From Nanobdellota archaeon (GTDB lineage Archaea; Nanobdellota; Nanobdellia; Pacearchaeales; GW2011-AR1): DNA of 14,202 nt. Below the pieces are notes generated by a model, which had not been told where the DNA came from, did no database searches, and saw nothing but the letters and a program-made list of their open reading frames with translations. Positions 377-14,202 of this stretch are shown here, in pieces. The first letter of the stretch is position 1, and every line of letters starts with the position of its first letter. The DNA lies in NCBI GenBank assembly GCA_020056045.1, contig JAGVIM010000129.1, positions 1-14,202 on the forward strand. Direction: 5' to 3'. A program made the translations under genes and the position numbers.

Positions 377-1831
377 ATGAAAAAGATGGTGAAAGCTCAG
401 AGTACTATAATCTCTTCAGTTATTATTTTATTAATTATATTTGTATGTATTTTAATAGTTTGGAATGCAGTTCATTTTTTAGTTAGTGAAAAAAGTAATC
501 AAATAGGTATTGATCAATTTATAACAAAAATAAATATTTATTCTACCCCTGTTATAAATAATAATTGTGTTGATCTAAGTATAAAAAGAGATGCAGGTGG
601 GGGAAAGTTATCAGGAATAAACTTTATGTTTAAAAATGACTCTAATGATCAGGAAAATTATATTGAAAAAGAGGAATCAAAACTTCCAAAAGAACTTGAA
701 AGAAAAGATTTTCAATTTTGCTATCCTGTTAATCTAAACATATCTAATGTAACAAAAGTATCATTTTCTCCAATGTTTGGCAATGGTGGAACTGATTATT
801 ATGGAATTATTTCTGAAGAAAATCCTATTAAAGAAATTCTTAAAGATCCTATATCTATTTCTAACTGTGCTGCTCTTCAAAATATGCGGTTTAATTTAAC
901 TGCAAATTATGAATTAATTAATGATATTGATTGTTCTGATACTATTAATTGGAATAATGGGAAGGGATTTAGTCCTGTTGCAAACGGAACAATTCAACAA
1001 TCAATTTGTTCTGGAAATGGTTTCATTGGAAATTTTAATGGAAAAGGCCATAAGATTTATAATTTATACATTAATAATTATAGTGGAACCTGTCTGGGAT
1101 TATTTGGAGATTCAAGAGGCAATATATCTAATGTTGGTCTAATTAATGTTACTATTTTTGCCAATAGCAGTTTAAAATTAATGGCTGGAGGAGTTGTTGC
1201 TTCAAATTATGGAAATATAAAAAATTCCTATTCAATCTATAATATTCAGGGAAAAGCTTATGGAGGTTCTGCATTCTTAGGAGGATTAGTTGGAGACAAT
1301 CATGGAAATATAACAAATTCTTATTCAATTGGTAACCTTAGTGGAGGCACTTATAGTCCTTTCTTTTCTTCTTATATCGGAGGGCTTATTGGACTTGCTT
1401 GGCGTGGCTCCAATATTTCAAATTGTTATTCTGTTTCAAGTGTTAATTTATCAAATGGATCCTGGACTTATGCAGGAGGATTGGGGGGACTAGTTGGAAA
1501 AGCATATCACTATAATGAGGGATTAGATAAATTTATAGAAAACTCTTTTGCTGTCCCAAGCATAAATATGAATTATACACTTAATGTCGGAGGAATATTA
1601 GGTTTGTATACCGTATCTACCTGGATAATCAATAGTTATTGGAATAATAACTCTAATAATCCAGTATTCGGATGCTATTCCAAATATAATGGTGTTATGG
1701 AAAATATCAACTGCACTGCAATTCAAAATAACCCTTCATATTTTTATTCTAAAAATAATGAGCCAATGGCTAGATGGAATTTTGAAACTGATTGGCAAGA
1801 AAATCCTGGAAGCTATCCTACATTAAAATGA
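377..1831 (+). CDS. Membrane-anchored GLUG-repeat surface protein
   Basis: A 484-residue protein, probably anchored at the cell surface. The N-terminus has a charged start, then K-A-Q-S-T and a hydrophobic stretch to about residue 32, which is the form of an archaeal class III (pilin-like) signal; cleavage would fall before Gln. Residues 170-235 have the F-x-G-x-F-x-G-x-G-H-x-I-x-N-L pattern that often precedes GLUG repeats. From 239 to about 421 there are six units that begin with a G-[LVI]-x-G type core (near 239, 270, 301, 334, 369 and 404), several continuing as G-N-I-x-N-S-Y-S. Known GLUG proteins are extracellular and predicted to form beta-solenoids, often in adhesins. The Asn-rich sequence offers many N-glycosylation sequons. 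The ATG at 377 is chosen because of the TATA spacing. The stop overlaps the next start in ATGA, so the two genes are probably translated together. Adhesion is an inference. Confidence 0.8.
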   Translation: MKKMVKAQSTIISSVIILLIIFVCILIVWNAVHFLVSEKSNQIGIDQFITKINIYSTPVINNNCVDLSIKRDAGGGKLSGINFMFKNDSNDQENYIEKEESKLPKELERKDFQFCYPVNLNISNVTKVSFSPMFGNGGTDYYGIISEENPIKEILKDPISISNCAALQNMRFNLTANYELINDIDCSDTINWNNGKGFSPVANGTIQQSICSGNGFIGNFNGKGHKIYNLYINNYSGTCLGLFGDSRGNISNVGLINVTIFANSSLKLMAGGVVASNYGNIKNSYSIYNIQGKAYGGSAFLGGLVGDNHGNITNSYSIGNLSGGTYSPFFSSYIGGLIGLAWRGSNISNCYSVSSVNLSNGSWTYAGGLGGLVGKAYHYNEGLDKFIENSFAVPSINMNYTLNVGGILGLYTVSTWIINSYWNNNSNNPVFGCYSKYNGVMENINCTAIQNNPSYFYSKNNEPMARWNFETDWQENPGSYPTLK

Positions 1832-2517
1832 AAAAACCTTACATAAAAAAAATTTATGAAAAGAATGGAAATAATTTCTTTTATGTTGATGGAGCATGGA
1901 TAAGGGAAAATATTGATGAAGAATTTATTACCTATTCAGACCATTTAAAATTTAAATTTATACCTCCAAGAGAAGTATGGATTGAAGAGGAGTTTAGTAA
2001 AAAAGAATGGAAGTATTATGTTAAGTATTTTGTTGCAAAATTAAAATATTTAGGGGAGTGTTATGAATACTGGGAAGCAGTAAGGCTTGCTAATGTTGTT
2101 GAACAAAATGCAAGAAATAAAAATCCCACTGTTAAAAAATTAAAAAAACTTCCAAGATATGAACAGGTAAAAGCAATTCATAAAAAGTTACTCAAAAAAT
2201 ACAGCAATGATAAAGTTAAGGTTTGGATGGCTAATGGATTTTTAGTAAGAAGTTTATATTATCTTGATTATTGTGCAGGAGGACATGACAAAGTATATCA
2301 CTTTGTTCCTCGCGGAGAAATCTGGATTGATGATGCTATTAATCCTAAGGATTTTAAATGCACACTAATTCATGAAGCTCATGAAAGAAGACTCATGGCA
2401 AAAGGAATGACCTATGATAAAGCACATCACCGTTCAAGCAGACTTGAATTATCCTGCAGAAAACATCCTAGAAAAATAGACAGAGTTCTAAGAAGAGAAT
2501 TAAGAAAACAGAAATAA
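1828..2517 (+). CDS. Putative HEAHE metallopeptidase-like protein with an internal duplication
   Basis: A 229-residue, charged, probably cytoplasmic protein with no signal peptide. Residues 159-207 read F-V-P-x-G-E-I-W-I-D-D, then L-I-H-E-A-H-E-R (His182, Glu183, His185, Glu186), G-M-x-Y-x-x-A-H (His200) and Glu207. This looks like a small putative zinc-peptidase family seen in phage and environmental genomes; the link is from memory of the motif and the substrate is unknown. Residues 44-98 align with 159-213 without gaps (F-[IV]-P, E-[VI]-W-I, a shared Lys, Tyr, Ala, Glu and Arg), but the His/Glu ligands are replaced, so the N-terminal half appears to be a dead copy. An in-frame ATG at 1792 is rejected: the ATG at 1828 gives the ATGA overlap, and the family-like sequence starts after it. 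The overlap implies coupling to the GLUG protein. Confidence 0.7.
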   Translation: MKKPYIKKIYEKNGNNFFYVDGAWIRENIDEEFITYSDHLKFKFIPPREVWIEEEFSKKEWKYYVKYFVAKLKYLGECYEYWEAVRLANVVEQNARNKNPTVKKLKKLPRYEQVKAIHKKLLKKYSNDKVKVWMANGFLVRSLYYLDYCAGGHDKVYHFVPRGEIWIDDAINPKDFKCTLIHEAHERRLMAKGMTYDKAHHRSSRLELSCRKHPRKIDRVLRRELRKQK

Positions 2518-2713
2518 AATAAATAATATTAATAATTTACAACTTCAATTAGTAATATTAATTAAAAAGAAGTAAAAATATAGTGAGTTTGCTACAATGA
2601 TTAGCTTACTGCAAAAATACCCTTAATAAACAATTATTTATAATAGATATTTGTTACCCCTTTGTAGTTTATACAATAAAAAGATTTATAAATATGCAAA
2701 ATTTAAGAAAACA
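2518..2713. other. Non-coding gap before the Gly/Tyr-repeat gene
   Basis: This AT-rich gap of 196 nt ends in a TATA box (2685-2693). Around 2583-2612 a weak bulged stem-loop is possible: AGTGA with TTACT, and GCTA with TAGC. On the minus strand it contains TTGCAG-TA-AGCTAAT, which resembles TTGCAG-AC-AGCTAAT at 3250-3264, a possible further trace of the intergenic element. I see no gene. Confidence 0.4.
2685..2693 (+). promoter_or_regulatory. TATA box of the Gly/Tyr-repeat gene
   Basis: TTTATAAAT after an A/G-rich run, centred about 25 nt before the ATG at 2714. The distance fits a leaderless transcript and supports 2714 over the TTG at 2651, which lies upstream of the promoter. Confidence 0.6.
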
Positions 2714-3181
2714 ATGAAAAAAGCATTATTATTTGGCTTAGTACTGAGTATTTTATTAATTAATTCTATAGCAATTGCTTCTGCTGCATCTTCTATTTAT
2801 AATAATAGATATCTCGGAGATCCAAATGAACCATCAACCTCTTATTATTCTTATACTGGAAAATCATCTTCTGGATCTGGAGGAGCTAGTTCTTCAACTT
2901 ATACATCAAGCAGACCTATTACTTTATTCAAAGGACCTTATACTGAACATTATATTTATAAAAGTCAAAATGGAATTCAGATACCTAGTTCTTCTCTTTC
3001 AACATCTGGTTATTTTAATAATGGAGGAGGTTATGTACCTTATAGCTACTACGGAGGTTACGGAGGTTATGGAGGTTATGGTGGATACAGAGGTTATAGT
3101 GGATATGGTTATTATGGTAGTGGTTATGGTGGATATGGTTGGTTTGGTGGGTATTATGGTGGAAGTTTTGGATATTACTGA
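2714..3181 (+). CDS. Small secreted Gly/Tyr-repeat protein
   Basis: A 155-residue protein with a clear Sec signal peptide: M-K-K, a Leu/Ile-rich core, and A-S-A near residues 21-23. The middle is Ser/Gly/Tyr-rich (residues about 45-75). The last 50 residues are almost only Gly and Tyr, built from G-G-Y, R-G-Y, S-G-Y and G-Y-Y-G steps, with single Trp and Phe residues near the end. I do not recognise a family. The composition resembles disordered, adhesive or self-assembling Gly/Tyr-rich proteins (silk-like or phase-separating), which suggests a surface coat or matrix role only by analogy. A start at TTG 2651 is possible in frame but would put non-signal residues before the signal peptide and lies before the TATA box. 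It appears to be a single-gene unit with its own promoter. Confidence 0.7.
   Translation: MKKALLFGLVLSILLINSIAIASAASSIYNNRYLGDPNEPSTSYYSYTGKSSSGSGGASSSTYTSSRPITLFKGPYTEHYIYKSQNGIQIPSSSLSTSGYFNNGGGYVPYSYYGGYGGYGGYGGYRGYSGYGYYGSGYGGYGWFGGYYGGSFGYY
3053..3106 (+). repeat. Six tandem 9-nt units inside the Gly/Tyr gene
   Basis: Units GGAGGTTAC, GGAGGTTAT (twice), GGTGGATAC, AGAGGTTAT and AGTGGATAT follow each other in frame and encode G-G-Y four times, then R-G-Y and S-G-Y. Looser copies continue to about 3171. The array can expand or contract by slippage without breaking the frame. Confidence 0.8.
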
Positions 3182-3276
3182 TAAAGATAGCAATTAAAAA
3201 CTAATAATTGATTAGGTTTCTTCAAATTATTATTAAAAAAATTATCGCCTTGCAGACAGCTAATTTTTCCAATACT

Positions 3277-3333
3277 TTATTAGTATCTTCAATATCTATG
3301 AGAGTTATGTAATCAGTTCATAATCTATTAAGC
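3277..3333 (+). repeat. Intergenic element, copy B (related to 161-208, minus strand)
   Basis: This stretch contains TTATTAGTA (3277-3285), AGTTATGTAATC (3303-3314), TTCAT (3317-3321) and TAAGC (3329-3333), collinear with the minus strand of 208-161. The 12-nt core is identical. Sequence just upstream (GCTAATTTTTCC) also loosely resembles the matching flank of copy A. In this copy a terminator-like hairpin follows 46 nt later. Confidence 0.45.
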
Positions 3334-3378
3334 ATATCATCCATAGCTCAATTACCATTACACTAACAATGAATTTGG

Positions 3379-3418
3379 AAACTTTTCTTTAACGAAGTTT
3401 GAAAAGTTTTTATTTTTC
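3379..3418 (+). terminator. 9-bp stem-loop followed by a T-tract
   Basis: AAACTTTTC (3379-3387) pairs with GAAAAGTTT (3401-3409) around a 13-nt loop, then TTATTTTTC follows. The loop also holds AAGTTT (3395-3400), which can pair with AAACTT at 3379-3384 as an alternative fold. It would end the Gly/Tyr mRNA (stop at 3181) or a small RNA in the gap. Confidence 0.5.
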
Positions 3419-3453
3419 TTCTAAAATCCGGAGTAAATACAAATATTAACAAA

Positions 3454-3462
3454 GTTTAAAAC
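3454..3462 (+). promoter_or_regulatory. TATA-like box for the pilin-like/giant gene pair
   Basis: GTTTAAAAC is centred about 26 nt before the ATG at 3484. It is a weaker match than the other two TATA boxes, but the spacing again fits a leaderless transcript. Confidence 0.4.
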
Positions 3463-3483
3463 ATAATTATTCTTATTAAATAT

Positions 3484-4248
3484 ATGTTAAAAAGAGGGGG
3501 AAGTATAAAAGCGCAGGTTACTATTTTTATTGTAGTTGTTGTTTTGATAATTGCAATAGGAGGGGTTGCTCTTATTTTTAAAAATAATATAAATATTCCT
3601 GGAATATCAAACCCAAATACAATGTCTCCTGAAATTCAGAGCATTAATTCTATTATTAAAACATGTACAGAACAAAGAGTTATTGATGCAATAAGAATTG
3701 TTGGATTGCAGGGAGGTTATGTTAATCTTCCTAGTAATTATCTTAAAACAAATCTTTCGAGTGTTGCCTATGGATATTATAATGGAAAGAATACACTTGC
3801 TTCTAAATCAACAATTGAAAAAGAAATTTCTTTATATGTTCAATTTACAATGCCATTTTGCATTGAAAATGAATTTGAAAATTTTAATATAACAAAATCA
3901 AAAGCAACAGTGAACACTAAAATCAATGATGATTCTATTATTGTTTCTTCAAAAATGCCGATTTCTGCTACAAAAGAAGATAAAATATTTACATTAAATA
4001 ATAATTATGAATTTGAAGTACCTGTTAGACTTGGAAATATGATTAATGTTGCAAATGAAATTGTAAAAAAAGAAATTGAAGATCCAAAACATATTGATTT
4101 AACATATTTAGCTGGAATTGACTACTATGTGCTGACTTCTCCTGAAAAAGAGAATAATCTTATTTATATTCTAACTGATGATAAAATAAAACTCGATGAT
4201 ATTCCCTACAGCTTTATGTTTGCAAATAAAATTGGAGCAATCATATGA
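3484..4248 (+). CDS. Pilin-like class III signal membrane protein
   Basis: A 254-residue protein. The N-terminus (Lys/Arg/Gly-rich, then K-A-Q-V-T and a long Val/Ile stretch to about residue 32) is an archaeal class III signal like that of the GLUG protein. It is probably held in the membrane or processed by a prepilin peptidase before Gln. The rest (residues 45-254) would face outside. It has Cys at about 60 and 128 that could form a disulfide, and mixed alpha/beta sequence with no family I can name. Proteins of this form are common in DPANN genomes. The ATG at 3484 is supported by the TATA-like box and by the signal. Its TGA overlaps the start of the giant secreted protein (ATGA), so both are probably made together. 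It may be a membrane partner or anchor for the giant, which is inference. Confidence 0.7.
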   Translation: MLKRGGSIKAQVTIFIVVVVLIIAIGGVALIFKNNINIPGISNPNTMSPEIQSINSIIKTCTEQRVIDAIRIVGLQGGYVNLPSNYLKTNLSSVAYGYYNGKNTLASKSTIEKEISLYVQFTMPFCIENEFENFNITKSKATVNTKINDDSIIVSSKMPISATKEDKIFTLNNNYEFEVPVRLGNMINVANEIVKKEIEDPKHIDLTYLAGIDYYVLTSPEKENNLIYILTDDKIKLDDIPYSFMFANKIGAII

Positions 4249-7200
4249 AAACAAAAAAGATTCTTTTTATCTTAATTATTAATATATTTATTAGTATTCT
4301 ATTATGTAGTCTTATACTGGCAGATGTTAGTATTGAAGTACAAAAAAAGAATCCTGATGGAAGTCCAGTACTAATTAATGACCTTAGCTCACAAACAAAA
4401 GCAAATATTAATTCAATTATTGATTATGCAAAAACAAGCTATTCTCAAGGGCGGATAATTGTTGATGAAAACGAAGTAACAACTTTAAGTAACAATGGAA
4501 AAATTGTTCTTTCAATACCTAAGGGTATTAAATTGGAAAATAAAAATAGTGTTTTGACAGTTACTGGAAAAATTGTGCCTATAATTAATTATCCTGAAAG
4601 GCCTGATATAAAAACTATTCCTAAACTTTCAATAGGAGAACTTGAATTAAATAGTGAAAAAGAAATTTCTTTAAATTTTAAAGAAAATATTGAATCAGGT
4701 ATTCAAACTATTTCCTTTAACGGAGATAAAATAAATCTTCAGGATTCTGCAGTAATTAAATCAAATACATTTGAATTTGGATTAGGTGGATTTGGTGTTA
4801 ATGGAGATGTTAAAGAAGGAACCATTGTCATAGACTCAAAAAATAAGAAAATTAATTCAATTGATGTTAAGTTTAAAGAAGGAACTGATGGTACAATTAG
4901 AGTAGCTAAAGAAAGATCAGGCAACTTAAATACAAAAAATAATATCAATGAAGTTTTTTCTAAATTTAATGAATATAACAATCTAAAAGAAGCTTCTTTT
5001 AAATTAAATAAGGGAGAAACTGATTATGCGTCTTTAACTTCATCAAAAGGAGGATCATATTCTTTTAATTACAAAGGGAAATCATTTATATTCAAAGCTG
5101 AAAAAAATGGCCATATTGTTTTTAATCCTCTTGAAGGAAAAATTTCTGGAGAAAATAGTGAACTAGCATTTGAAGGTGGAAAAAATATTAATTCATTTAA
5201 AGGATTTAGCGGAGTTATTGATGAAAATGGAAATATAAAAAATATTGATTTAAAAGAAGGGGGGTGGTATTCTGATTCTACAAATAGAAAATACTCTTCT
5301 ACTAAAGGGGATTTAAAATTATTTTTTAATGGAGAAGCAATAAAAGGAATTGAGGGGAATGTAGTTTCTTTTGATAAAGATGAAAAAGTATATTTAAAGG
5401 GGTTTGTAAAAACAACAGGTTATCCTGAATATGAAGGAAAAAGTGATAATGCATATACTGAATTTAATCCAAAATTTAAAAAAGAAGATGGAACTATCCC
5501 TTTTTTTGATGTTAAAGAAGGAAATGCTGATTTAAACAATGGAAAACATAAAATAATTATAGAAAATGGAAAAGCAAAACTTGAATTAAACAAAGGACTT
5601 TTTAATGTTTATGATCAAAATCCAATTTCCTATGGATTTGCAATTTATAATAATGGAGAAAAGATTGAAGGATATTTAGATGAGGGTAAAAAAGAATATA
5701 ATCTTATTGTATATAATAAAAATGGGGAGAAAACCATTAGATCAATGGAGTCTTCTAAATGGAGTAATGAACTCGGCACTAAAAAACTTAATTCTCAAAA
5801 AGAAAAAGAAACAATATCAACTATTGGGGCCATAGATAAAAGAGTTATTGAATTAAAAAATGAACTTAATGGGAAAACTTCTAAAGAATTAGATAGCTTG
5901 GAACTCTATAAAATTTATCTTGAAAAACAATTAAGAGATATTTATGGAGAACCTAGGGATGAGGTTGTAGTAGAACTTAAAAAATATTTAGAAAATGAAA
6001 GAAATCTAGAATCTAAGGCAAATGCTCAGTTAATGCTAGGAGAAATGTTAAATCAAAAAATAATTGCAAGCACTCCTCCGAAAGAAATTGCATATCTTTT
6101 TCCAGAAGTATTTTCTTCAGGACCTGTTGCATCTGTTAGTTATAAAGAAGGTCTTTATTTTAGAACAGATAGAAATGGAAATATAATAGGTTATTCTCCT
6201 GATGGAACTAATTATGTTGGAACTGATTATGATCCTGCTAATTTTCCTTCTGGTAAAATAAGTTATGATAGTATTTCAGTTATTAATGAGCTTAAACAAA
6301 AAGGTTGGACTGTTGATTCTTTACTTCAAGATAGAATTGTTGATAAGGGACTTGCAAAAGACTCTTATGAATATAAACAAATAGAAACTTCTGCAAAAGA
6401 AACAAGAGATTTGCTTTCTGCTGCAAAAGAATATTTTCAAAAAAATAGTGATAGTAAAAGTGCTGGAATGGCTGATATTTATATTGCACAAAGCTATCAA
6501 AGCACAGATAGTTCTAGTACTTTAAATGAATTTGAAAGAATAATTAGAGAAAACACAGATAGTTCTATTAAATCAGAAGCAACAAGACTAATGGCTCTTT
6601 CTAATTTTGAAGTATCTCCTAGCAATAATGCTGGACTAGTGATGCAACAACTTAGACAAGCTATTTTACTTGATCCTAATAATAAACAAGCTCTTTATGA
6701 TTTAGATAAAATAAGTAGCTCATTTTTAGATTCAAGAATAAAAGCAGGTTATGCAGAACCTGAAAAAATAATTTCAGATGTTTTTGCAAAAATTGGAGAA
6801 GGTTCTACTAATCCATATGCTGAAAAATTAAAAGATGGAGTTTTTCATCCTGTAAGAGCAATTTATTCTCAAGCAACAGGAACAGAAGAATTAGTATCAA
6901 CTGTCAAGTCAAGACTTGATGAAAATGATCGTACTTTACTTGGTGCACAGGGCATAAGAGTTCTTACAAAAAACAGTTATGATGTTTCAAACTATCTAAC
7001 TTCTTCTGAAGAAAATAAATTTGAAACAATTTCTAGATTAAATGGACTTGATAGTGTAATTTCTACAGACAAAATAAAAGATTATATGACAAGATCTGGA
7101 TTTGATTTTAATGCTGAAGATATTAATTCACAATCAAAAAAACTTTTTGATTTAATTGCAAAAGAAGAAGGAGATAGTAAAGCAAATCTATATTTTAATA

Positions 7201-10178
7201 ATTTTAATCGTGCAACAACCATAATGGGGGCTATAAGAGAATCTGTTCAAAAAGATCCTGCACTTTATTTAATCGCAACTAATGGTGAAGAAATAAAAGG
7301 AATAACTTATACTGGTGAAGAAAAAGATTTTGATAGTGCATTTACAAGAGACAGGGTTGGAAAATCTATTGATAGAACCTGGGGAGATACTGCAATAAGC
7401 ATTGGAGATTTTGGAGTTAGTAGTATTGCTCTTACTGGTGCAGGGGGTTATATTGGAAGGGGAATTGGTGCTGCTGCAGAATTTATTCCTGGATTAAGTA
7501 AAGTTGTAGAAGGTGCTAATGTAATTATTAATCCTGGACAGCTTATTGCTGCAAAAACTCTTTCACAGGAAGCTGGTTTTATATCAAGAATTACTGTTTC
7601 TGCTCCTTTTGATATTATTTCTCAAACAGGAATTATTACAACAAGCAATATTGCATTAGGTCCTTTAGGGGGAACTGTTAGTGAGATCCTTACTTTTATG
7701 AATCCTGCTGCTGGACTTGAAAGAAAAATTGGAAAAGAAATAGGGATACTAAGAGCAGGAACAGAAGAAATCATAGAATCAAGAGTATCAAAAGAAGCTT
7801 TAAAAAATGCTGAAAAAATTGGATTTACAAAAGTATCAGAAAGTGTTTATGCAGGAGTTGATTCTTCTGGAAGAAATTTTGTTGTTTATGCAGGAGAAAA
7901 TATTCCAAGGGAACTTAAAGAAATTGGATTTAGTAGAATTACAAGTCAAGAGGCTGAAGAAAGAATAGGACAAATTATTGAAGAAAATTCTAGGAGAAAT
8001 ATAGAAACAGTTAGTGAACAAGCTCTTGATACACAAAGTGAACTTGCCATAAGAAATATTGGTAGAGGAAGTTTGGGAGAATCTGAAATAATTAAAAATT
8101 TTGGTGAAATAAATCCAAAATATTATTTTGATCTAGGGGAAAAATCAAAAGATTTAGTTCCAGGTATAAGTCAATCAGGAATGAGAGAAACAATTAATGT
8201 TGATGGAATTCCAAATGGATTAAAGCAAACAATAAATGATAAGTTTGATTCTACAATTGGAAGTTTAGGACCTGATGCTAGTTATAATGATTATTTGAAA
8301 CAGGCAGTGTTATTTTCAAAAGAAATGAAAGAATCGCTTCCTTTTTTAGGTTATGAAAATATATATGAAGCAAGAGCTGAAATTGCAGATCAAAGAACTT
8401 TATTTTATGAATATTTAAAAAAATTAGAAAATGGTGATGTAAAACTAAGTGGACTCATTAAAACAAATGATCTTGATTGTAATGGTCAAGCACTTACAAT
8501 GTATTTAGCACTTGGAGGAGAAAAAAGTGGATTTAATCTTTATGGTGGTATTAGTAGTACTGGAGAAGATAGAGTTCATTCATTTCTTGCAAAACAAATT
8601 GAAATAAATGGGGAGAAAAATATGCTTATAATAGATCCAACAGAACTTGATTTATATGTTAATGCAGTTGGAATAAATCCAGGTTATCTTAGGTCTCATA
8701 GTTTAGTTGTAGCAGAAGAAGAATTTAAGAGAATTGGTTATAATATGCATGATTTAAGTACTGGAGTTGGAAGTATTGATGTAATTGCTGAAAATAATTT
8801 AAAAGAAAGAACAATAGGTATTGAGAACGGAGCTAAAACAGTTAGTGAATTTACTCAGGGAGATTTAATGGTTTATCCTCCGACTTGTTTTGTTGCAGGA
8901 ACTATGATTTTAATGTTTGATGGATCAAGTAAACCCATAGAAAAAATAAAAATAGGAGATTTTGTTAAATCATATAATTATGATTTTAATGAAATTAATT
9001 CAAAGGTATTAGAATTAGAATCTCCAATAAGGGATGGGTATTATAATATTAATTTTGATGATGGCTCTAATTTAAGTATAACTGATGAACATCCTATTTA
9101 TATTATAAAAAATAATTATTCTGGATGGGCTTCTATAAACCCTAAAAAAACTCAAAAATATTACTATTCATTTTTTGGTCTTGAAAAAATTGAAATTGGA
9201 GATTATGCCCTTCAAATTAAAAATAAAACAATAAAAATAAATGGAATTAATTTTATTAACCAAACAATAAAAACTTATAATCTTAAGCATATTAATAGCA
9301 GCCATACCTTTTTTGCTAATTCTTTTTTAGTTCATAACAAAGCATTATCTGCTACTCAAGAAAAGATTCTTAGCACACAACCTATTGATACAGTAAACAC
9401 TATTGTAAATCCAGGAGTTATGTATTCAGATGAGATGGTGAGTGTTCAAAGGGACTTTACAAAATTAACTCCTGAAGCAAAGGTTGAATTAATGGATCGT
9501 ATTGGTTTTATAGATAATGAAGAATATTTAGATTTACTTTCTGAACTCCTTCATCCTAATTCAGATACTTATTTAAAAGTTAGAAAATTTGAAGACCAAC
9601 TTTTTGCAAGTAAAACCATATGGAATGATCCTGCTTATAGAATAGGTGTTAGTGAAGAAATATTTAGATATGTTCAAAATCCCAATAATATGGAAATGCT
9701 TGTTACTCCAATGACTAATAAAAATTTTAATAATTTCATTAAAACTGCAAATATAGAACCACAATTAGCAACTCCAGAAAGCATTACTAAACAAGTTGAT
9801 ACTGTTCTTAGAAGTGATATGAAAACTGAGTTTAATGTTAATTATTATGTTAGTAGCCCTGAAGAAGCTGAAAAAGTTGGAAGAGAACTTTTAAATAAAT
9901 ACATAGTTGAGCCCTATGGAAGTAATAGTTTAGATATGGCTGCTTCTCATTATAGTTTAGAGTTAAAAAATCCTGATCTGCCTAATTCTTATGTAGGCAG
10001 AATAAGAAGAGATGTTCAGGGGGATTATCAACAATTTACATTAAAAGATGGAACAACAAGACAGATGCAATTACCCCCTCATATAAATGTTGAAATTCCT
10101 AGGGCAAGAGTTATAAAGGGAGATGGAACTTTTACAGAAGCAGACATAACAATACATGTATTTTACAAACCAATTTAA
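4245..10178 (+). CDS. Giant secreted multidomain protein with transglutaminase-like and Hint domains
   Basis: A 1977-residue protein. A Sec signal peptide covers residues 1-26. Residues 30-505 are beta-rich with many short D/N-G turns and look like a repetitive beta-structure. Residues 515-610 are charged helices, and about 735-830 are TPR-like. A Gly/Ala/Ile-rich hydrophobic stretch lies at about 1046-1155. A transglutaminase-like core follows: D-C-N-G-Q-A (Cys1412), V-H (His1445) and I-I-D-P-T (Asp1464). Then come a Hint domain (1548-1698) and a C-terminal domain of 279 residues I do not recognise, with His at 1902, 1946 (P-H-I-N-V-E) and 1971. The layout resembles polymorphic toxins, where Hint self-cleavage releases the C-terminal part. 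The substrate of the transglutaminase-like core (crosslinker or protease) cannot be told. The start overlaps the pilin-like gene (ATGA), and GGAG lies 7 nt before it. The frame is intact throughout. Domain calls are from motifs only. Confidence 0.8.
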   Translation: MKTKKILFILIINIFISILLCSLILADVSIEVQKKNPDGSPVLINDLSSQTKANINSIIDYAKTSYSQGRIIVDENEVTTLSNNGKIVLSIPKGIKLENKNSVLTVTGKIVPIINYPERPDIKTIPKLSIGELELNSEKEISLNFKENIESGIQTISFNGDKINLQDSAVIKSNTFEFGLGGFGVNGDVKEGTIVIDSKNKKINSIDVKFKEGTDGTIRVAKERSGNLNTKNNINEVFSKFNEYNNLKEASFKLNKGETDYASLTSSKGGSYSFNYKGKSFIFKAEKNGHIVFNPLEGKISGENSELAFEGGKNINSFKGFSGVIDENGNIKNIDLKEGGWYSDSTNRKYSSTKGDLKLFFNGEAIKGIEGNVVSFDKDEKVYLKGFVKTTGYPEYEGKSDNAYTEFNPKFKKEDGTIPFFDVKEGNADLNNGKHKIIIENGKAKLELNKGLFNVYDQNPISYGFAIYNNGEKIEGYLDEGKKEYNLIVYNKNGEKTIRSMESSKWSNELGTKKLNSQKEKETISTIGAIDKRVIELKNELNGKTSKELDSLELYKIYLEKQLRDIYGEPRDEVVVELKKYLENERNLESKANAQLMLGEMLNQKIIASTPPKEIAYLFPEVFSSGPVASVSYKEGLYFRTDRNGNIIGYSPDGTNYVGTDYDPANFPSGKISYDSISVINELKQKGWTVDSLLQDRIVDKGLAKDSYEYKQIETSAKETRDLLSAAKEYFQKNSDSKSAGMADIYIAQSYQSTDSSSTLNEFERIIRENTDSSIKSEATRLMALSNFEVSPSNNAGLVMQQLRQAILLDPNNKQALYDLDKISSSFLDSRIKAGYAEPEKIISDVFAKIGEGSTNPYAEKLKDGVFHPVRAIYSQATGTEELVSTVKSRLDENDRTLLGAQGIRVLTKNSYDVSNYLTSSEENKFETISRLNGLDSVISTDKIKDYMTRSGFDFNAEDINSQSKKLFDLIAKEEGDSKANLYFNNFNRATTIMGAIRESVQKDPALYLIATNGEEIKGITYTGEEKDFDSAFTRDRVGKSIDRTWGDTAISIGDFGVSSIALTGAGGYIGRGIGAAAEFIPGLSKVVEGANVIINPGQLIAAKTLSQEAGFISRITVSAPFDIISQTGIITTSNIALGPLGGTVSEILTFMNPAAGLERKIGKEIGILRAGTEEIIESRVSKEALKNAEKIGFTKVSESVYAGVDSSGRNFVVYAGENIPRELKEIGFSRITSQEAEERIGQIIEENSRRNIETVSEQALDTQSELAIRNIGRGSLGESEIIKNFGEINPKYYFDLGEKSKDLVPGISQSGMRETINVDGIPNGLKQTINDKFDSTIGSLGPDASYNDYLKQAVLFSKEMKESLPFLGYENIYEARAEIADQRTLFYEYLKKLENGDVKLSGLIKTNDLDCNGQALTMYLALGGEKSGFNLYGGISSTGEDRVHSFLAKQIEINGEKNMLIIDPTELDLYVNAVGINPGYLRSHSLVVAEEEFKRIGYNMHDLSTGVGSIDVIAENNLKERTIGIENGAKTVSEFTQGDLMVYPPTCFVAGTMILMFDGSSKPIEKIKIGDFVKSYNYDFNEINSKVLELESPIRDGYYNINFDDGSNLSITDEHPIYIIKNNYSGWASINPKKTQKYYYSFFGLEKIEIGDYALQIKNKTIKINGINFINQTIKTYNLKHINSSHTFFANSFLVHNKALSATQEKILSTQPIDTVNTIVNPGVMYSDEMVSVQRDFTKLTPEAKVELMDRIGFIDNEEYLDLLSELLHPNSDTYLKVRKFEDQLFASKTIWNDPAYRIGVSEEIFRYVQNPNNMEMLVTPMTNKNFNNFIKTANIEPQLATPESITKQVDTVLRSDMKTEFNVNYYVSSPEEAEKVGRELLNKYIVEPYGSNSLDMAASHYSLELKNPDLPNSYVGRIRRDVQGDYQQFTLKDGTTRQMQLPPHINVEIPRARVIKGDGTFTEADITIHVFYKPI
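8478..8636 (+). other. Transglutaminase-like catalytic core within the giant protein
   Basis: The spacing Cys1412-x32-His1445-x18-Asp1464 matches the transglutaminase/papain-like core. Cys sits in D-C-N-G-Q-A at a helix start, a Leu/Gly-rich stretch follows, His comes after a G-x-S loop, and Asp is in I-D-P-T. The same D-C-x-x-x-A / H / D-P-T words recur in bacterial and archaeal transglutaminase-like proteins. Some members crosslink proteins, others cut peptide bonds. Confidence 0.6.
8886..9338 (+). other. Hint (intein-like) autoprocessing domain within the giant protein
   Basis: The 151 residues begin with Cys1548 (C-F-V-A-G-T-x-I, then K-P-I-E-K-I-K-I-G-D), carry the block B motif T-D-E-H (Thr1613, His1616), and end in S-H-T-F-F-A-N and V-H-N (His1697, Asn1698). 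All residues needed for the N-S acyl shift and Asn cyclisation are present. The next residue is Lys, not Cys/Ser/Thr, so normal intein splicing is unlikely and cleavage is expected, as in bacterial intein-like or polymorphic-toxin Hint domains. It has no room for a homing endonuclease. Confidence 0.85.
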
Positions 10179-10191
10179 TAAATTATAACAA

Positions 10192-11034
10192 TTATATTTT
10201 TTTTCTCAACCATTTATAAAAATAAAAAAATAAATCTTGAACATCCCCTTTATTGAGAAATAATAATTCTAAAGATTTTATTGTTCCTGCTTTAATTTCC
10301 TCTTGATTTTGGTTAACTAAACTTTGCAGACTTTTTCTAACTATTTCTTCAATTGAATCAGGAGTTACCGGTATAGGTCCTTTAGAAAGTAAAGGTATTG
10401 CTAACTCAAAATGTCCATCTCTTAAATAAGAAGTTTTAGGATCATAGCCAAAATATTCTGTTTTTTCTTCAGGAATTTCTGGATTTTGAAAATTTAAATT
10501 AAAAGGATTATTATCAAATCTTTCTATAGAATATCTTATAAGACCATTAGAAGGTATTGTTATAGTATCTGTCACAAACCTAGGATTAAAACTTAAAATC
10601 TCTTTAGGATCTGTATTTCTATATATAGGGGATTTTTTTAAAATGACTCTTTCTTCATAAACATTTTCAAAAACTTGTTTTATTGCCTTAATTTCTTCTT
10701 GATTTGGTTGATCGTGAGATATTGCTTCTTGAAACAATCTTAAAAATTGTCTTGTTTTTCTTGCCCCATATTGTTTTTGGGCTGTTAAAGATTTAAGATT
10801 ATATTTATCTAAACTTAATTCTCTTAGATAATGAACTTCAACTTGCTGATCATCAGTATTAGTACCAAGAACTCTTGAATAAGAATGGGCTAATCCGGTT
10901 CTTGATGAAATCCATAGGGGAGGAAAATCTTTTGATTGATCTTTTTCAGGTACTGACTCTGCTAAACTTTCAGCTAAAATTTCTAAGTCAGTTTTATAAT
11001 TTCTTTCTGTAGATGGGAGATTCATTGAAAACAT
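10192..11034 (-). CDS. Hypothetical protein, last gene of the RtcB/ARH operon
   Basis: A 280-residue protein I do not recognise. It has no signal peptide or membrane segment. Residues 1-110 are mixed and polar, with an R-T-G-L-A-H-S-Y-S-R segment near 45-54. About 105-130 is helical and acidic. The middle (145-215) is rich in Asn, Pro and aromatic residues with likely beta-strands, and the C-terminal 50 residues are helical, ending in a basic tail (K-W-L-R-K-K-I). The first Met is 2 nt after the stop of the RtcB-like gene; Met4 (11025) is an alternative. Placement at the end of the operon suggests a partner of the RNA ligase or the ADP-ribosylglycohydrolase, but no catalytic motif is visible. 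It converges on the giant gene with 13 nt between stops. Confidence 0.7.
   Translation of the reverse strand: MFSMNLPSTERNYKTDLEILAESLAESVPEKDQSKDFPPLWISSRTGLAHSYSRVLGTNTDDQQVEVHYLRELSLDKYNLKSLTAQKQYGARKTRQFLRLFQEAISHDQPNQEEIKAIKQVFENVYEERVILKKSPIYRNTDPKEILSFNPRFVTDTITIPSNGLIRYSIERFDNNPFNLNFQNPEIPEEKTEYFGYDPKTSYLRDGHFELAIPLLSKGPIPVTPDSIEEIVRKSLQSLVNQNQEEIKAGTIKSLELLFLNKGDVQDLFFYFYKWLRKKI
10197..10204 (+). terminator. T8 tract after the giant gene
   Basis: Eight T residues follow the stop at 10178 by 18 nt. T-tracts are the usual archaeal termination signal. It lies inside the 3' end of the convergent gene, where it encodes the C-terminal Lys codons on the other strand. No strong hairpin precedes it. 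Confidence 0.4.
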
Positions 11035-11036
11035 TT

Positions 11037-11999
11037 TTAACTAATACTTACAAGAGGTTTAAATTGAGCAACTTCAGATACATAGGGTTTTATTAAAGGA
11101 AAAATCTCTTCAAGATTTCTATAGCAAAGAGTATGTTCTGATGGAGAATTTGAATTTTTCTTGGAGGGTAGATATACTTCTCCATTTAAATTTTCTGGTT
11201 CAAAATTAAATTCTTTTGATTCACTTCTTGATAATTTTCTCCCTGTTCCATGGGACATTGAATATTCAATATCTGCTATTTGGGGAAGGGCTCTAACTAA
11301 AACGGCAGTTCCTAGATATGTAGAAGGAATAATTGCAAGTTCTCCTGGATTAATTCTTACTGCTCCTTTCCTATAAACAACTTGATTATTTTCTCTTGAA
11401 ACTTGATTATGAACAGAGTCTAATACGATTTCCAGTTTAGCTCCTGATAATCTTTCAACAAGATGAGTAAGTTCTTTTCTGTTTTTTCTTGAAAAATCAA
11501 TTGCATTATTATGTGCTTTAAAATATTCATCTCCCCTATACCCTGCTTCAAAAACTCTTTTACCTTCTAATCTGCTTCCAGTATGAATCAAAACAAATAA
11601 GTCTTTGTCTTGAAAATCGGTTGAATCAGATGATGTAGGCCGATATAAATTTAAAAAATGATTTCCCCCACCTAGACTTCCTAAATTTGTTTTTTTAATT
11701 CTTAACTCTTGGTAGATTCTATCAGCTAGTTCTCTTAAGTCCATATTTATGGGACTCACAAATTTAGTCAACATCATACCGCAACCAATATCTGGGCCAA
11801 TAAATCCTGGATTAATAACATGTTCATTTCCAAATATTGCTACAGATCCTGTTGGAATAAGCCCCTTACCAGGACAATAGTCTGGAAGAACAACTAATTT
11901 CTTCATACCTTGAGTATAAAAATTATATTCTAATCTGTTTCCAGACAAGTTGATAATCTTAGGTTTTTTTGTCATTTTTAGGAAACTTTTAATTGTCAT
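11037..11999 (-). CDS. Compact RtcB-family RNA ligase
   Basis: A 320-residue RtcB-family protein. RtcB joins RNA 2',3'-cyclic phosphate or 3'-phosphate ends to 5'-OH ends, using Mn2+ and GTP through a guanylylated His. All signature blocks are present: P-D-x-x-P-G-K-G (39-46), D-I-G-C-G-M (Asp70, Cys73), G-G-G-N-H-F (Asn113, His114), H-T-G-S-R (His139), V-H-N (His197) and S-H-G-T-G-R (His250, the expected GMP acceptor). It is shorter than usual RtcB (about 380-480). Only 41 residues separate Cys73 from His114, where the archaeal enzyme has roughly 100. The C-terminus ends F-K-P-L-V-S-I-S without the family's final Lys-Gly. It may be a specialised paralogue, like the short RtcB forms linked to peptide release factor H, rather than the tRNA-splicing ligase. 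The start at 11999 overlaps the upstream gene by 11 nt; Met9 (11975) is an alternative. Confidence 0.85.
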   Translation of the reverse strand: MTIKSFLKMTKKPKIINLSGNRLEYNFYTQGMKKLVVLPDYCPGKGLIPTGSVAIFGNEHVINPGFIGPDIGCGMMLTKFVSPINMDLRELADRIYQELRIKKTNLGSLGGGNHFLNLYRPTSSDSTDFQDKDLFVLIHTGSRLEGKRVFEAGYRGDEYFKAHNNAIDFSRKNRKELTHLVERLSGAKLEIVLDSVHNQVSRENNQVVYRKGAVRINPGELAIIPSTYLGTAVLVRALPQIADIEYSMSHGTGRKLSRSESKEFNFEPENLNGEVYLPSKKNSNSPSEHTLCYRNLEEIFPLIKPYVSEVAQFKPLVSIS

Positions 12000-12975
12000 T
12001 TATTATTTGATTTATTATTTTTTGAGAGTATGAAAATCTGCTTCTTGTTGAATTAACAACATCAAATAATTTTTTTGCTTTTTCTTTTAATAGTTCATGA
12101 TCTTCTAATTGAGATTTCCATTGTTCTGGAATTTGTGAATAACCATATTGTAAACCTGCTAATGAACCTGTAATGGCTGCCCTTGAATCAGCATCTCCAA
12201 ATCCATTTGCAGCAAATAAAACAGAATTTCTAAAATTATTTGCTCTTAAAACAGAATAAATTGCAGAATAAACAATATCTTCAACAAAACCAGAATCTCC
12301 TATGGTCTCTATAGCACTTGTTGGATCAATTGAACGATTCTGAGATAGATCTAATACTTGTTCTAATTTTTTTCTATATTTTTTATTTAAAAAATTATCT
12401 TCGTCCACTATCTGAAAAGTTACTGCTTCAGATGATTTTCCTTGAGCCATTTCCTGAATATAATAATTAACTAAACTTCCCATTCTTGCAACATCTTTAT
12501 GAGCATGGGTTACACCTAAAATCCTTTTTTCATTTCCAGAGGTTAGTTTAACTTCATAGGGAACTAATGCAGAGTATAAACAATAGGGAATTAATCTTGC
12601 TAAAGCAAGTGAGCCACAGGCATTTTGATGATCAATTCCTGATTTTTCTGGAGGAACTCTTTTTTTCAAATTTTGAATTGCCTGTTCTGTTGTTCTTCCA
12701 ATTGAACGAGGATTTGCTGAATACCACTGTATTAATCTTTTTCCAATATTATCTAAATCAATTGCACCTTGATTTTCAATTAAAGAATCTAATGAAATTA
12801 TTAAATGTTGAGTATCATCTGTATATTGTCCTGCTTTTAACCCTTTTCTATAGGCAGGTTCAAAATCAGTTACAGGTTTTGGAATTTTTGCAAATTCTAC
12901 AGGAGCTCCTAGTGCATCCCCTATTAAAAAACCAACAACACTTCCCATTAATCTATCTAATTCTTTATTTTTCAT
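11989..12975 (-). CDS. ADP-ribosylglycohydrolase (ARH/DraG family)
   Basis: A 328-residue cytoplasmic enzyme. The family removes ADP-ribose from proteins (Arg or Ser), from free O-acetyl-ADP-ribose, or, in some members, from nucleic acid ends, using two Mg2+/Mn2+ ions. Motifs: G-x-x-x-G-D-A-L-G-A-P-x-E (Gly15-Glu27), Y-T-D-D-T (Thr52-Thr55, metal ligands), T-H-A-H near the middle, and F-G-D-A-D-S-R-A-A-I-x-G-x-L-A-G (Asp261, Asp263, Ser264). The last motif is normally G-G-D-T-D-T; here Gly-to-Phe and Thr-to-Ser changes keep both Asp residues and a hydroxyl, so activity is likely. The length is usual. The start overlaps the SGNH gene (ATGA), and AGGAG lies 7 nt before it. With RtcB downstream, an ADP-ribosylated RNA or RNA-processing protein is a possible target, but this is inference. 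Confidence 0.88.
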   Translation of the reverse strand: MKNKELDRLMGSVVGFLIGDALGAPVEFAKIPKPVTDFEPAYRKGLKAGQYTDDTQHLIISLDSLIENQGAIDLDNIGKRLIQWYSANPRSIGRTTEQAIQNLKKRVPPEKSGIDHQNACGSLALARLIPYCLYSALVPYEVKLTSGNEKRILGVTHAHKDVARMGSLVNYYIQEMAQGKSSEAVTFQIVDEDNFLNKKYRKKLEQVLDLSQNRSIDPTSAIETIGDSGFVEDIVYSAIYSVLRANNFRNSVLFAANGFGDADSRAAITGSLAGLQYGYSQIPEQWKSQLEDHELLKEKAKKLFDVVNSTRSRFSYSQKIINQIINDN

Positions 12976-13568
12976 TGTTTTTCTCCTGGAAGTAATTTAT
13001 AAACTTCTTGTGCAATTAATCTTGCACCTTCTTCATTTGGATGAAGAGCATCAAAAAAATGCTCATCCTTTAAAACAGAACAAATATCTGCTAAAGGAAT
13101 ATTTCTAGTAGCACAATATTCACTTAGTTTTTGATTATGATAATCTCTTTTTTGTTTTGCTTGTTCTATAAATTTTATTGAAAATGGATTATCTAAAGTA
13201 GCAACAATATTGGGAACATTAATCAATATTGGTTTTGTTGATTTTGATTTAGCTATTTCATTAATCATTTGATTATAATTAGTTATTATTCTTTGACTTG
13301 TTAATTCAAGATTATGACCTTCACCCAAATCATTTGTTCCAAATCCTAAAATAACATATTCTGGATTTGGAAATCTTTGCATTGCTCTTGTTAAACATTC
13401 TAAACCTTCTCTACTATAAAGTCCGGGCATTCCATAATCTCTAACATTAAATCTTTCTCCAACTAATTCTTGAAGAAATTGAGGATATGTTGGAATTCTA
13501 ACAATAGAACTATTCCAACCAGTTATGCTATCTCCTACACAAACTATTTTAGGATTAAAATTTGTCAT
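12972..13568 (-). CDS. SGNH/GDSL-family hydrolase
   Basis: A 198-residue intracellular hydrolase of the SGNH (GDSL) fold; members cleave esters, thioesters, acetyl groups or some phosphodiesters. Block I is V-G-D-S-I-T with the nucleophile Ser14, block II is Y-G-M-P-G (Gly49), block III is G-F-G-T-N-D (Asn79), and block V is F-D-A-L-H-P-N with Asp173 and His176. All four catalytic positions are present, and the length fits a single-domain enzyme. No signal peptide is seen, unlike secreted lipases of this fold. It overlaps both neighbours by 4 nt (ATGA), so it is translated with the unknown upstream gene and the ADP-ribosylglycohydrolase. In this setting it might remove an acyl group from O-acyl-ADP-ribose or from RNA, but the substrate cannot be read from the sequence. 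Confidence 0.88.
   Translation of the reverse strand: MTNFNPKIVCVGDSITGWNSSIVRIPTYPQFLQELVGERFNVRDYGMPGLYSREGLECLTRAMQRFPNPEYVILGFGTNDLGEGHNLELTSQRIITNYNQMINEIAKSKSTKPILINVPNIVATLDNPFSIKFIEQAKQKRDYHNQKLSEYCATRNIPLADICSVLKDEHFFDALHPNEEGARLIAQEVYKLLPGEKQ
12983..12987 (-). promoter_or_regulatory. Shine-Dalgarno site of the ADP-ribosylglycohydrolase gene
   Basis: AGGAG on the minus strand, 7 nt before the ATG at 12975 and inside the last codons of the SGNH gene. It is the clearest ribosome binding site in the operon and supports this start. The other genes of the operon lack one. Confidence 0.55.
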
Positions 13569-14202
13569 TGTATTCTAAATTCTAATAAGTTTGAAGTTTG
13601 TGCTTCAACTGTTAATTTATTATCTATAGCTTTTGTGTTTAATAACTGCCAGTGAATTAAAGGATTAAAAAATACTGCCTGAGCAGGATCAGCTACAAAA
13701 GTATATGGAGTTACTTTTCTATTTCTAAATTTAGGATCATTTATCTGAAATAAATTTGGATTTAATTTAAATCTTTCTTTTGTCATAACAGATCCACCAA
13801 AATCTAAATGACTTGCCCCTTCATTTGCAATAAATTCTTGAACAACTTGAAGATAGGTCAAAGCAGGTTGAACTGATTTTGCAACTAGTGACTTTTTTTT
13901 AGTCTGCCTATAAAAAGAATTAAGTGCTGTCCACATTTTAACAATATCAAATTGAGGAATATTTTCTATTACTTTATTCCAATATTCTTTAGGACTTGAA
14001 AAAACATCTTGTTGTTTTAATCCTATTACTACTTGATATTTATCTTTAGAATGATCTAATAAAGTTATATTTTCTAAATTATATTGTTCTCTTGAAAGAG
14101 GTTGCTCTGGAATATTTGGAAGATAATTTTGTCTAAAGTATTCTAAATCTTTTTCTAAATCTCCTTTTAATAAAAAAGATACTCTTTTGTTTACATCAGA
14201 TA
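13565..14202 (-). CDS. Hypothetical protein, 5' end outside the window
   Basis: The frame stays open to the window edge at 14202, giving at least 211 residues with no start needed. The Met at 13936 is internal, because in-frame coding-like sequence continues before it without a stop. The visible part has no signal peptide or membrane segment. The N-terminal portion (about 85 residues) is charged, with a Y-Q-V-V-I-G-L-K strand near 14018-14041. The C-terminal portion contains H-L-D-F-G-G-S (near 13800), R-x-R-K-V-T-P-Y-T-F-V and F-F-N-P-L-I-H-W segments. I do not recognise a family. It overlaps the SGNH hydrolase gene by 4 nt (ATGA), so it belongs to the same operon, whose promoter must lie beyond the window. 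Confidence 0.75.
   Translation of the reverse strand, partial: SDVNKRVSFLLKGDLEKDLEYFRQNYLPNIPEQPLSREQYNLENITLLDHSKDKYQVVIGLKQQDVFSSPKEYWNKVIENIPQFDIVKMWTALNSFYRQTKKKSLVAKSVQPALTYLQVVQEFIANEGASHLDFGGSVMTKERFKLNPNLFQINDPKFRNRKVTPYTFVADPAQAVFFNPLIHWQLLNTKAIDNKLTVEAQTSNLLEFRIQ

Follow-up and report, generated by a model that had tools for sequence, protein, structure and literature searches.

A row of RtcB, ADP-ribosylglycohydrolase and SGNH hydrolase genes as a probable immunity array in a polymorphic-toxin-like locus of an archaeon

Results

The stretch of DNA analysed here (the window, 14,202 nt from a Nanobdellota archaeon) carries five packed minus-strand genes, for an RtcB-like RNA ligase, an ADP-ribosylglycohydrolase (ARH), an SGNH hydrolase and two proteins designated A and B, which converge with the gene for a giant, polymorphic-toxin-like protein. 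We read the row as a probable immunity array, built up by accretion at a polymorphic-toxin-like locus of an archaeon and working partly by damage reversal. We observed the gene content and convergent layout themselves, the modularity of body and C-terminus among the giants, the linkage of SGNH, B and a domain of the giant in a second genome, the recurrence of ARH genes on the 3' side of genes that are large or toxin-like, and, in a third genome, an RNA ligase of another, distant kind at this position.

Layout of the locus

Recomputing the coordinates returned the overlaps of 4, 4 and 11 nt and the single 2-nt gap given in an earlier note on this DNA. The 11-nt value, on the RtcB side, hinges on the choice of RtcB start, and a start at 11975 leaves a short gap instead. 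The earlier note had taken the gene row alone, leaving out the plus-strand giant gene (4245-10178), which is convergent with the row and lies 13 nt from its last stop codon. It had also read the first gene as 123 aa (13565-13936); the frame is really open to the window end, giving at least 211 aa. The enzyme identities that it proposed were confirmed: RtcB matched PF01139 at 129 bits (cut-off 27), ARH matched PF03747 (ADP_ribosyl_GH) at 189.3 bits (cut-off 26.2), and the SGNH protein matched PF13472 (GDSL/SGNH) at 72.3 bits (cut-off 32.9). The same is true of its two proteins of no assigned family, since a Pfam scan gave no family at cut-off for A and listed none for B, scanned as 123 aa and as 211 aa.

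The giant protein and its relatives

The giant protein (1977 aa) resembles polymorphic toxins and looks secreted, judging from the relatives of its body and a signal-like N-terminus seen by eye. Body relatives are present in 10 of 165 other, related genomes. When six giants were compared, their bodies matched in all 15 pairs (E 3e-9 to 2e-112), and their last 350 residues did not match (best E 0.014); relatives truncated at contig ends (L251, L253, L257) or with a Hint match only (L255, L256) were excluded from this comparison. Immediately 5' of the giant gene, on the plus strand, lies the gene for a 254-aa protein (3484..4248) that we call pilin-like by eye and that has no Pfam family above cut-off. 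Where a locus includes the 5' end of the body relative, a homologue of this protein immediately precedes it (7 of 7 loci).

The putative toxin domain is the C-terminal domain of 279 aa (9339..10175, plus strand), which follows a Hint-like domain (residues 1548-1698; 8886..9338, plus strand) ending in LVHN. The Hint-like domain shares 42% identity with the Hint parts of L255 and L256, and ORFs in L227, L250 and L261 passed PT-HINT. Its match to PF01079 (26.3 bits) is under the cut-off of 29.7, which counts against the immunity-array reading, as does the Hint start motif being found in 2 of the 6 giants; the giant of genome G009 stops inside its own Hint domain. At E 0.001, a search of 184 other genomes found no relative of the C-terminal domain; the domain matched no Pfam family, and a fold search with a poor query model (mean pLDDT 50.5) returned nothing at E 0.001.

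An internal domain (8109..8760, plus strand) carries Cys-His-Asp-type motifs (LDCNG, VHSFL, IDPTE) and is 42% identical to a separate ORF in G009. Its enzyme-type reading was made by eye; it matched no Pfam or NCBIfam family, and its structure model is poor (mean pLDDT 45.9). PDB sequence searches with the C-terminal and Cys-His-Asp-type domains gave nothing useful. Family scans recognised no ADP-ribosyltransferase in the window's giant, which again counts against the immunity-array reading.

In G003, an NTase-like protein and a TIGR01209-like RNA ligase are convergent with a body relative, which favours the immunity-array reading. This distant ATP-type ligase scored 47.9 bits against a cut-off of 136.9 and falls below both curated cut-offs, which counts against that reading. 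In G001 (L248), the body relative is followed by a BtpA-family gene, which is not immunity-like and counts against an immunity array. Two further readings, both by eye, are that the G003 ligase has a PIN-like tail and that the triad in the HIT-like protein of G201 is degenerate.

SGNH hydrolase and protein B recur together

The SGNH/GDSL hydrolase (198 aa; 12972..13568, minus strand) contains GDSIT, GTND and DALHPN, starting at residues 12, 77 and 173, which we take to be SGNH-family motifs. Protein B (at least 211 aa; 13565..14200, minus strand) is encoded by a frame that runs off the contig end at 14202; its gene pairs with the SGNH gene and is a candidate for an immunity function. Homologues of both adjoin each other in G009, a genome of the same genus, at L250:11722-12354 (47% identity to SGNH, E 2e-49) and L250:10970-11707 (28% identity to B, E 2e-21). 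This pair, without RtcB and ARH, is convergent with a stand-alone ORF of the giant's internal domain. In profile searches, the internal domain and B were both confined to the same 2 of 166 genomes, with the window genome counted.

A DarG-like Macro protein (103.5 bits, cut-off 250; PF01661 35.1 bits, cut-off 22) is encoded second in a G009 row that is convergent with a PT-HINT gene, which favours the immunity-array reading. By-eye guesses of RelE-like and ART-like types for two G009 cassettes were dropped, and these types are not claimed, because family and PDB sequence searches gave only Hint/intein.

ARH genes recur beside large or toxin-like genes

ARH (328 aa; 11989..12975, minus strand) has TDDT and GDADS motifs and matched PDB 1t5j at E 2e-27. 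A large, Hint, RHS or PRTase-CE gene has ARH on its 3' side for 6 of the 8 other ARH genes examined (L213, L222, L225, L227, L228, with two genes between, and L229). The neighbour matched PRTase-CE in L222 (29.4 bits, cut-off 27), PT-HINT in L227 (49.2 bits) and RHS core in L229 (49.3 bits, cut-off 32.5), the last with R-S-E-like motifs seen by eye and no family match there. The large proteins of L213, L225 and L228 have no Pfam domain above cut-off, the L227 giant is the only body relative of the window's giant among the six ARH neighbours, and the other two ARH genes (L223, L226) sit elsewhere; each of these observations counts against the immunity-array reading. That the L227 giant is a body relative at all counts in its favour. 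ARH lay at most 3 genes from the 3' side of an ORF of at least 900 aa, a bar chosen after the loci had been seen, in 4 of 7 cases, compared with 4 of 165 background genes.

These counts bear on the proposal that the overlapping genes may be unrelated housekeeping genes or passengers, packed together by chance in a compact genome. In its favour, RtcB, ARH and SGNH all belong to widespread families, this exact combination was met once, and the ARH of L226, from the same genus, lies among NAD-metabolism-like genes (product names read by eye). However, two genomes have SGNH and B together next to one and the same toxin-like domain, the nearness of ARH to giant genes exceeds the background, and we regard chance packing as unlikely.

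RtcB and protein A

The RtcB-like RNA ligase (11037..11999, minus strand) is compact, with 320 aa, or 312 aa if translation starts at the second Met (11975). The shorter length is that of its database copy, and the N-terminus of its nearest relative, P0005, falls within a few residues of that Met. In an alignment of 24 sequences, and with PDB 1uc2 also aligned, the D, C, GNHF-type, H, HN and HGTGR-type positions are invariant or nearly so; presumably these are metal, Cys and guanylylated-His residues. The family test asks for these motifs together with a PF01139 match, and the window protein has them all.

As the earlier note had proposed, we looked for a conserved neighbourhood around RtcB relatives, in 160 loci (80 genomic, 80 viral) that include non-compact RtcB too. 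The row was not conserved there: relatives of SGNH, A or B occurred in 0 of 160 loci at E 0.01, and ARH relatives in 1 of 160, more than 5 kb away from RtcB.

Protein A (280 aa; 10192..11034, minus strand), whose gene faces the giant gene across the 13-nt gap, is a candidate direct immunity protein. Its sole relative besides itself was P0003 (50% identity), on a 1643-nt contig. Homology of A to B was rejected after direct comparison gave none, and neither protein was homologous to the small ARH-side genes of G036 in the pairs compared. Weak matches of the L222 first ORF to RtcB (E 3e-4), of a 127-aa ORF of L223 to B (E 0.009) and of an L216 ORF to ARH (E 0.003) came from BLAST against the five query proteins only, a tiny database for such E-values, and were set aside as noise.

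Conservation of the row and alternative origins

The five-gene set as a conserved operon was absent from every other locus examined. The exact combination was seen once, in the window, as was the RtcB/A pair, which counts against the immunity-array reading. Parts of the row occur separately, SGNH and B with the giant's domain, and ARH next to further genes of the large, Hint, RHS or PRTase-CE kinds. A phage origin of the row was rejected: 35 phage records have ARH relatives and 160 have RtcB relatives, all with less than 60% identity, and phage searches found no relatives of SGNH or A. A viral scan by SGNH alignment returned a single locus, L283.

The row could instead be part of an anti-phage or general defence island that mends tRNA or protein damage from viruses or host abortive systems, the proximity of the giant being incidental. 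ARG-centred systems countering viral ADP-ribosylation are proposed in the available part of PMC9503650, but no weighty PADLOC family was found among the five (ARH matched part of Cas12d at E 0.0021, the best value, and B matched a homing endonuclease model at 0.048), and ARH genes lie near large or toxin-like genes repeatedly and more often than background genes do, which makes this explanation quite improbable. A single dedicated pathway, with ARH taking ADP-ribose and SGNH an acyl group off RNA ends or translation factors, RtcB rejoining the RNA, and A and B serving as sensors or scaffolds, is very unlikely, because despite the tight packing and the discussion of ADP-ribose-processing domains alongside viral RNA repair in that part of PMC9503650, the five-gene set was not found elsewhere, the G009 SGNH/B pair lies beside a toxin-like domain without RtcB and ARH, and ARH occurs without RtcB in the other ARH loci read. 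The damage-reversal idea of the earlier note thus survives in part: enzymes undoing damage, by ADP-ribose removal and RNA resealing, fit the locus, and a single five-gene route from de-ADP-ribosylation to resealing is unsupported. The note would have called the grouping chance if the genes were not neighbours elsewhere. The set was indeed not found elsewhere, yet the toxin-like neighbour is the common factor, and therefore the grouping is better accounted for by an immunity array than by either a single repair pathway or chance.

Discussion

As an immunity array, the locus might work as follows. The giant gene product would comprise a secreted body, the Cys-His-Asp-type domain, the Hint-like domain and a variable C-terminal domain, which the Hint domain would free. 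The convergent row would shield the producer and its kin. Protein A, encoded nearest the 3' end of the toxin gene, would bind the C-terminal domain; RtcB would rejoin the RNA 2',3'-cyclic phosphate and 5'-OH ends left by an RNase-type toxin; ARH would strip ADP-ribose put on by transferase toxins; and SGNH with B would counter the Cys-His-Asp-type domain. We infer every toxic activity, each toxin-immunity pairing, Hint release and the resealing of RNA by the window's RtcB. RNase activity in the C-terminal domain is a guess, since this domain matches no family or fold, and this too counts against the immunity-array reading.

Published cases of enzymatic protection favour the immunity-array reading. 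The passages of PMC3482391 available to us present ARG as an enzyme that confers immunity to ART toxins, and there Zhang et al. 2012 state that they know of no enzymatic immunity protein other than ADP-ribosylglycohydrolase. According to the available part of PMC9223846, RtcB2 protected E. coli from colicin E3, and the RtcB2-PrfH module gave no protection from the tRNA-cutting colicins E5 and D, which counts against the immunity-array reading. In the open-licence literature searched, PMC9503650 was the one paper to combine RtcB with immunity proteins and polymorphic toxins, and it names RtcB once, in its reference list.

A broader reading is possible, though we hold it tentatively: a class of small archaea may resist its own polymorphic toxins mainly by repair, with RNA ligases of unrelated superfamilies and ADP-ribose hydrolases as cognate immunity proteins. 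Such repair-type immunity, as tentatively, might include the compact RtcB of the window, the ATP-type ligase with a nucleotidyltransferase in G003, ARH and Macro, and would replace or accompany toxin-binding inhibitors. Should ARH, Macro and RNA ligases of two kinds indeed occupy immunity-like positions in one family of loci, repair would become a general immunity strategy, and competition among small archaea could be tested directly on such loci.

Comparison with known systems

Like the polymorphic toxin systems described in the available part of PMC3482391, the window has a large secreted-looking protein with a conserved body, a Hint-like domain and a variable C-terminus, together with immunity-like neighbour genes and, in a related genome, separate Hint/C-terminus ORFs. 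That source reports a general paucity of the classical systems in most archaea; unlike them, the window locus is archaeal, most of its neighbour genes are convergent, and several encode repair or reversal enzymes. Archaeal polymorphic-toxin-like loci have been reported (Makarova et al. 2019 mBio, as cited in the accessible text of PMC8416519). The archaeal loci in the available part of PMC6393860 likewise combine toxin domains with dark-matter neighbours, and toxin loci in archaea are thus in themselves no novelty; unlike the window, those loci are named there with colicin D and PD-DExK toxins, and that part does not mention RtcB or ARH. The window shares an RtcB-family ligase with RtcB2-PrfH, in which, from the accessible text of PMC9223846, the ligase protects against an RNase toxin. 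It differs in that a Pfam scan found no release-factor family (the prfH partner) among the five proteins, and in that its RtcB is compact (312-320 aa) and lies beside a toxin-like gene.

The window also resembles Imm-ARG/Tri1-type immunity in having an ADP_ribosyl_GH protein near toxin-like genes, with Tri1 as its best NCBIfam match. Unlike that type, its ARH scores 126 bits against the Tri1 cut-off of 490, and no ADP-ribosyltransferase was recognised in the window. Finally, an RNA-repair 'syntax' of ligase plus nucleotidyltransferase is reportedly the subject of gkw722. The NTase-like protein and distant ATP-type RNA ligase of G003, at the position of the window's row, resemble this syntax, and differ from it in being tied to an archaeal toxin-like locus.

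The operon and its genes

Five genes occupy the minus strand from 10192 to the contig end. As the earlier note had it, they are tightly packed, overlapping by 4, 4 and 11 nt at three junctions and separated by 2 nt at the other. Protein A (10192–11034) had no Pfam family above the cut-off and a single relative besides itself. In the compact RtcB-like RNA ligase (PF01139, 129 bits), the motif positions of the D/C, GNHF-type, H, HN and HGTGR-type are conserved, as judged from an alignment of 24 and from PDB 1uc2; TDDT and GDADS motifs are retained in the ADP-ribosylglycohydrolase (ARH; PF03747, 189.3 bits) and GDSIT, GTND and DALHPN in the SGNH hydrolase (PF13472, 72.3 bits). Protein B reaches the contig end with at least 211 residues, open to the end of the window, and has no Pfam family; the protein search gave no relative, though one is present in a stretch of genome G009. 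The closest relative of the compact RtcB, P0005, shares 66% identity in the aligned set; some two dozen others among the 120 best listed are roughly 35–46% identical. Because another RtcB, of full length (475 aa, 489 bits), is encoded elsewhere in the window genome, the compact RtcB is an extra copy. The genome is archaeal, encoding TFIIB, a family matched in 4 of 14 control genomes, all four archaea.

As a conserved neighbourhood, the five-gene set was not found again in the RtcB, family or phylum searches. The comparison covered 160 loci carrying an RtcB relative, namely the 80 best of 464 in genomes and the 80 best of 546 on viral contigs. At E 0.01, relatives of A, B or SGNH occurred in 0/160 of these loci, and ARH relatives occurred in one (L099), more than 5 kb from RtcB; because many of the loci are short and not all encode a compact RtcB, distant partners could be missed. 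At E 1e-15 the compact RtcB was confined to the window genome among 181 genomes of the family. Counting the window genome, it was present in 9 of 371 phylum genomes, and the set was absent from all eight other phylum RtcB loci read. At E 1e-40, a class search with an RtcB alignment matched 4 of 378 genomes, among them the window's own.

The genes of a second compact RtcB subfamily (298–333 aa by ORF calls) converge with that of a conserved protein of 273–285 aa. This pairing was seen in eight of the ten loci read (L214–L220 and L083, from G461, G297, G278, G381, G369, G482, G115 and a named Woesearchaeota record) and was lacking in L221 and L262. The two genes overlap by 4 nt in six of the eight, and the partners are mutually homologous in all 28 pairs (28–42% identity).

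A modular giant protein facing the operon

Tail to tail with the operon, with 13 nt between the ends, lies the gene for a secreted-looking giant of 1977 residues (4245–10178, plus strand). A Hint-like domain, matched below Pfam's cut-off, spans residues 1548–1698 and is followed by a C-terminus of 279 residues. Relatives of the giant's body occur in 10 of 165 other genomes, and in two of the ten (G207 and G080) the match is confined to the Hint region; stretches from all ten were examined. A homologue of the pilin-like gene at 3484–4248 is directly upstream of the body relative in all seven loci that contain its 5′ end (L248–L252, L254 and L257), a count that leaves aside L253, which starts inside the gene, and the Hint-only loci L255 and L256. 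The pilin-like protein might have a role in delivery. Near the toxin-like locus, 377–1831 encodes a protein of 484 residues that looks secreted and carries a GLUG motif (29.2 bits, cut-off 20.5).

We compared six giants, from the window, L248, L249, L250, L252 and L254, omitting those cut by contig ends. Their bodies were alike in 15/15 pairs (E 3e-9 to 2e-112). The last 350 residues gave no match between giants (best E 0.014), in a comparison that includes the giant of G009 (L250) though it terminates within its own Hint domain. Only two of the six have the Hint start motif. The C-terminus of the window's giant had no relative in 184 other genomes, and structure models of this region and of the internal Cys-His-Asp-type domain were too poor for naming a fold.

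Operon homologues beside toxin-like genes

In G009, of the same genus, the genes after the body relative form a row made up of Hint fragments with differing C-termini, opposite-strand small genes and MNT/HEPN-like genes (products by eye). The L250 ORF 10242–10835 is 42% identical to the internal domain of the window's giant, whose Cys, His and Asp motifs it keeps, and is convergent with homologues of B (28%, E 2e-21) and SGNH (47%, E 2e-49), in the reverse of their order in the window. With profiles built from the window and G009 sequences, the internal domain and B were each found in the same two of 166 genomes. This linkage in G009 is the strongest evidence that SGNH and B belong to the toxin-like domain of the giant. 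In the same genome, a row convergent with a PT-HINT gene has in second place a Macro protein that resembles DarG (PF01661, 35.1 bits, cut-off 22). Several ORFs in L250 and L261, on G009 contig C47, combine a hydrophobic signal-like start, the C-terminal half of Hint and differing C-termini, and look as if they were cassettes stored for swapping in.

Eight other ARH genes were considered, seven found at E 1e-10 when 200 genomes of the order were searched and one on contig C214 of G000. Six of them are located 3′ of a gene that is large or encodes a Hint, RHS or PRTase-CE domain. The neighbours in L213 (1422 aa), L225 (903 aa) and L228 (1983 aa, two genes between) have no Pfam domain above cut-off; that in L222 has a PRTase-CE domain (29.4 bits, cut-off 27), and its C-terminus is homologous (E 4e-31) to that of the PT-HINT neighbour in L227, the only body relative among the six. 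In L229 the gene directly upstream, in the same orientation, encodes an RHS core and, by eye, R-S-E-like motifs. The two exceptions (gene names by eye) are L226, where the neighbours are NAD-metabolism-like, and L223, where they are of other kinds. The L226 stretch 971–4701 (G006) places ARH among NAD synthase-, NAD kinase- and nicotinate-nucleotide adenylyltransferase-like genes (by eye).

ARH was within three genes of the 3′ side of an ORF of at least 900 aa in 4 of 7 loci (L213, L225, L227 and L228), the window and C214 being excluded and L222 and L229, whose contigs end, scored as misses. The same held for 4 of 165 control genes from 20 contigs picked by number, a background with only three giants of at least 900 aa, and the binomial chance is about 3e-5, for a 900-aa bar chosen after the loci had been seen.

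The row convergent with the body relative of G003 (L249, same genus) encodes a 548-aa relative of RNA ligases, together with proteins resembling an NTase (18.3 bits, cut-off 26.9) and a beta-propeller (34.1 bits, cut-off 133). The ligase has ligase-type motifs by eye and, being below curated cut-offs (PF09414, 23.5 against 27 bits; TIGR01209, 47.9 against 136.9) with nothing found in a PDB sequence search, is a distant relative. This ATP-type ligase relative (824–2467) has a long C-terminal tail, PIN-like by eye. In G201 (L252), the second protein of the convergent row is HIT-like (27.7 bits, cut-off 21.5). Two loci are counter-examples: what comes after the body relative is a BtpA-family gene in G001 (L248) and two small same-strand genes of no named product in G058 (L254).

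A polymorphic-toxin-like locus

Together, the comparisons establish the layout, modularity and linkages of a toxin-like locus. A new five-gene pathway of RNA repair and de-ADP-ribosylation, as the earlier note proposed, is not borne out: the set was not refound in the loci and genomes searched, and elsewhere SGNH/B occur beside a toxin-like domain and ARH beside large or toxin-like genes. Judged from sequence, the operon is best read as part of an archaeal polymorphic-toxin-like locus, with immunity-like genes rich in damage-reversing enzymes. The giant would be delivered to neighbouring cells, Hint would release its C-terminus, and the operon would protect. In accreting arrays the newest immunity gene is expected nearest the toxin's 3′ end, and A is for this reason a putative inhibitor, which would act on the giant's present C-terminus. 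RtcB would reseal RNA cut by this C-terminus or by a past toxin. ARH would counter the family's ADP-ribosylating toxins, as SGNH/B would the Cys-His-Asp-type domain.

The general kind of archaeal toxin locus is already known (PMC6393860), and the giants, with bodies alike and C-termini unlike, share the pattern outlined for polymorphic toxins (PMC3482391). In PMC9223846, RtcB2 protected E. coli from colicin E3, even alone when overproduced, although the RtcB2 module gave no protection from the tRNA-cutting colicins E5 and D. RtcB2 is a precedent for the role proposed for the window's RtcB.
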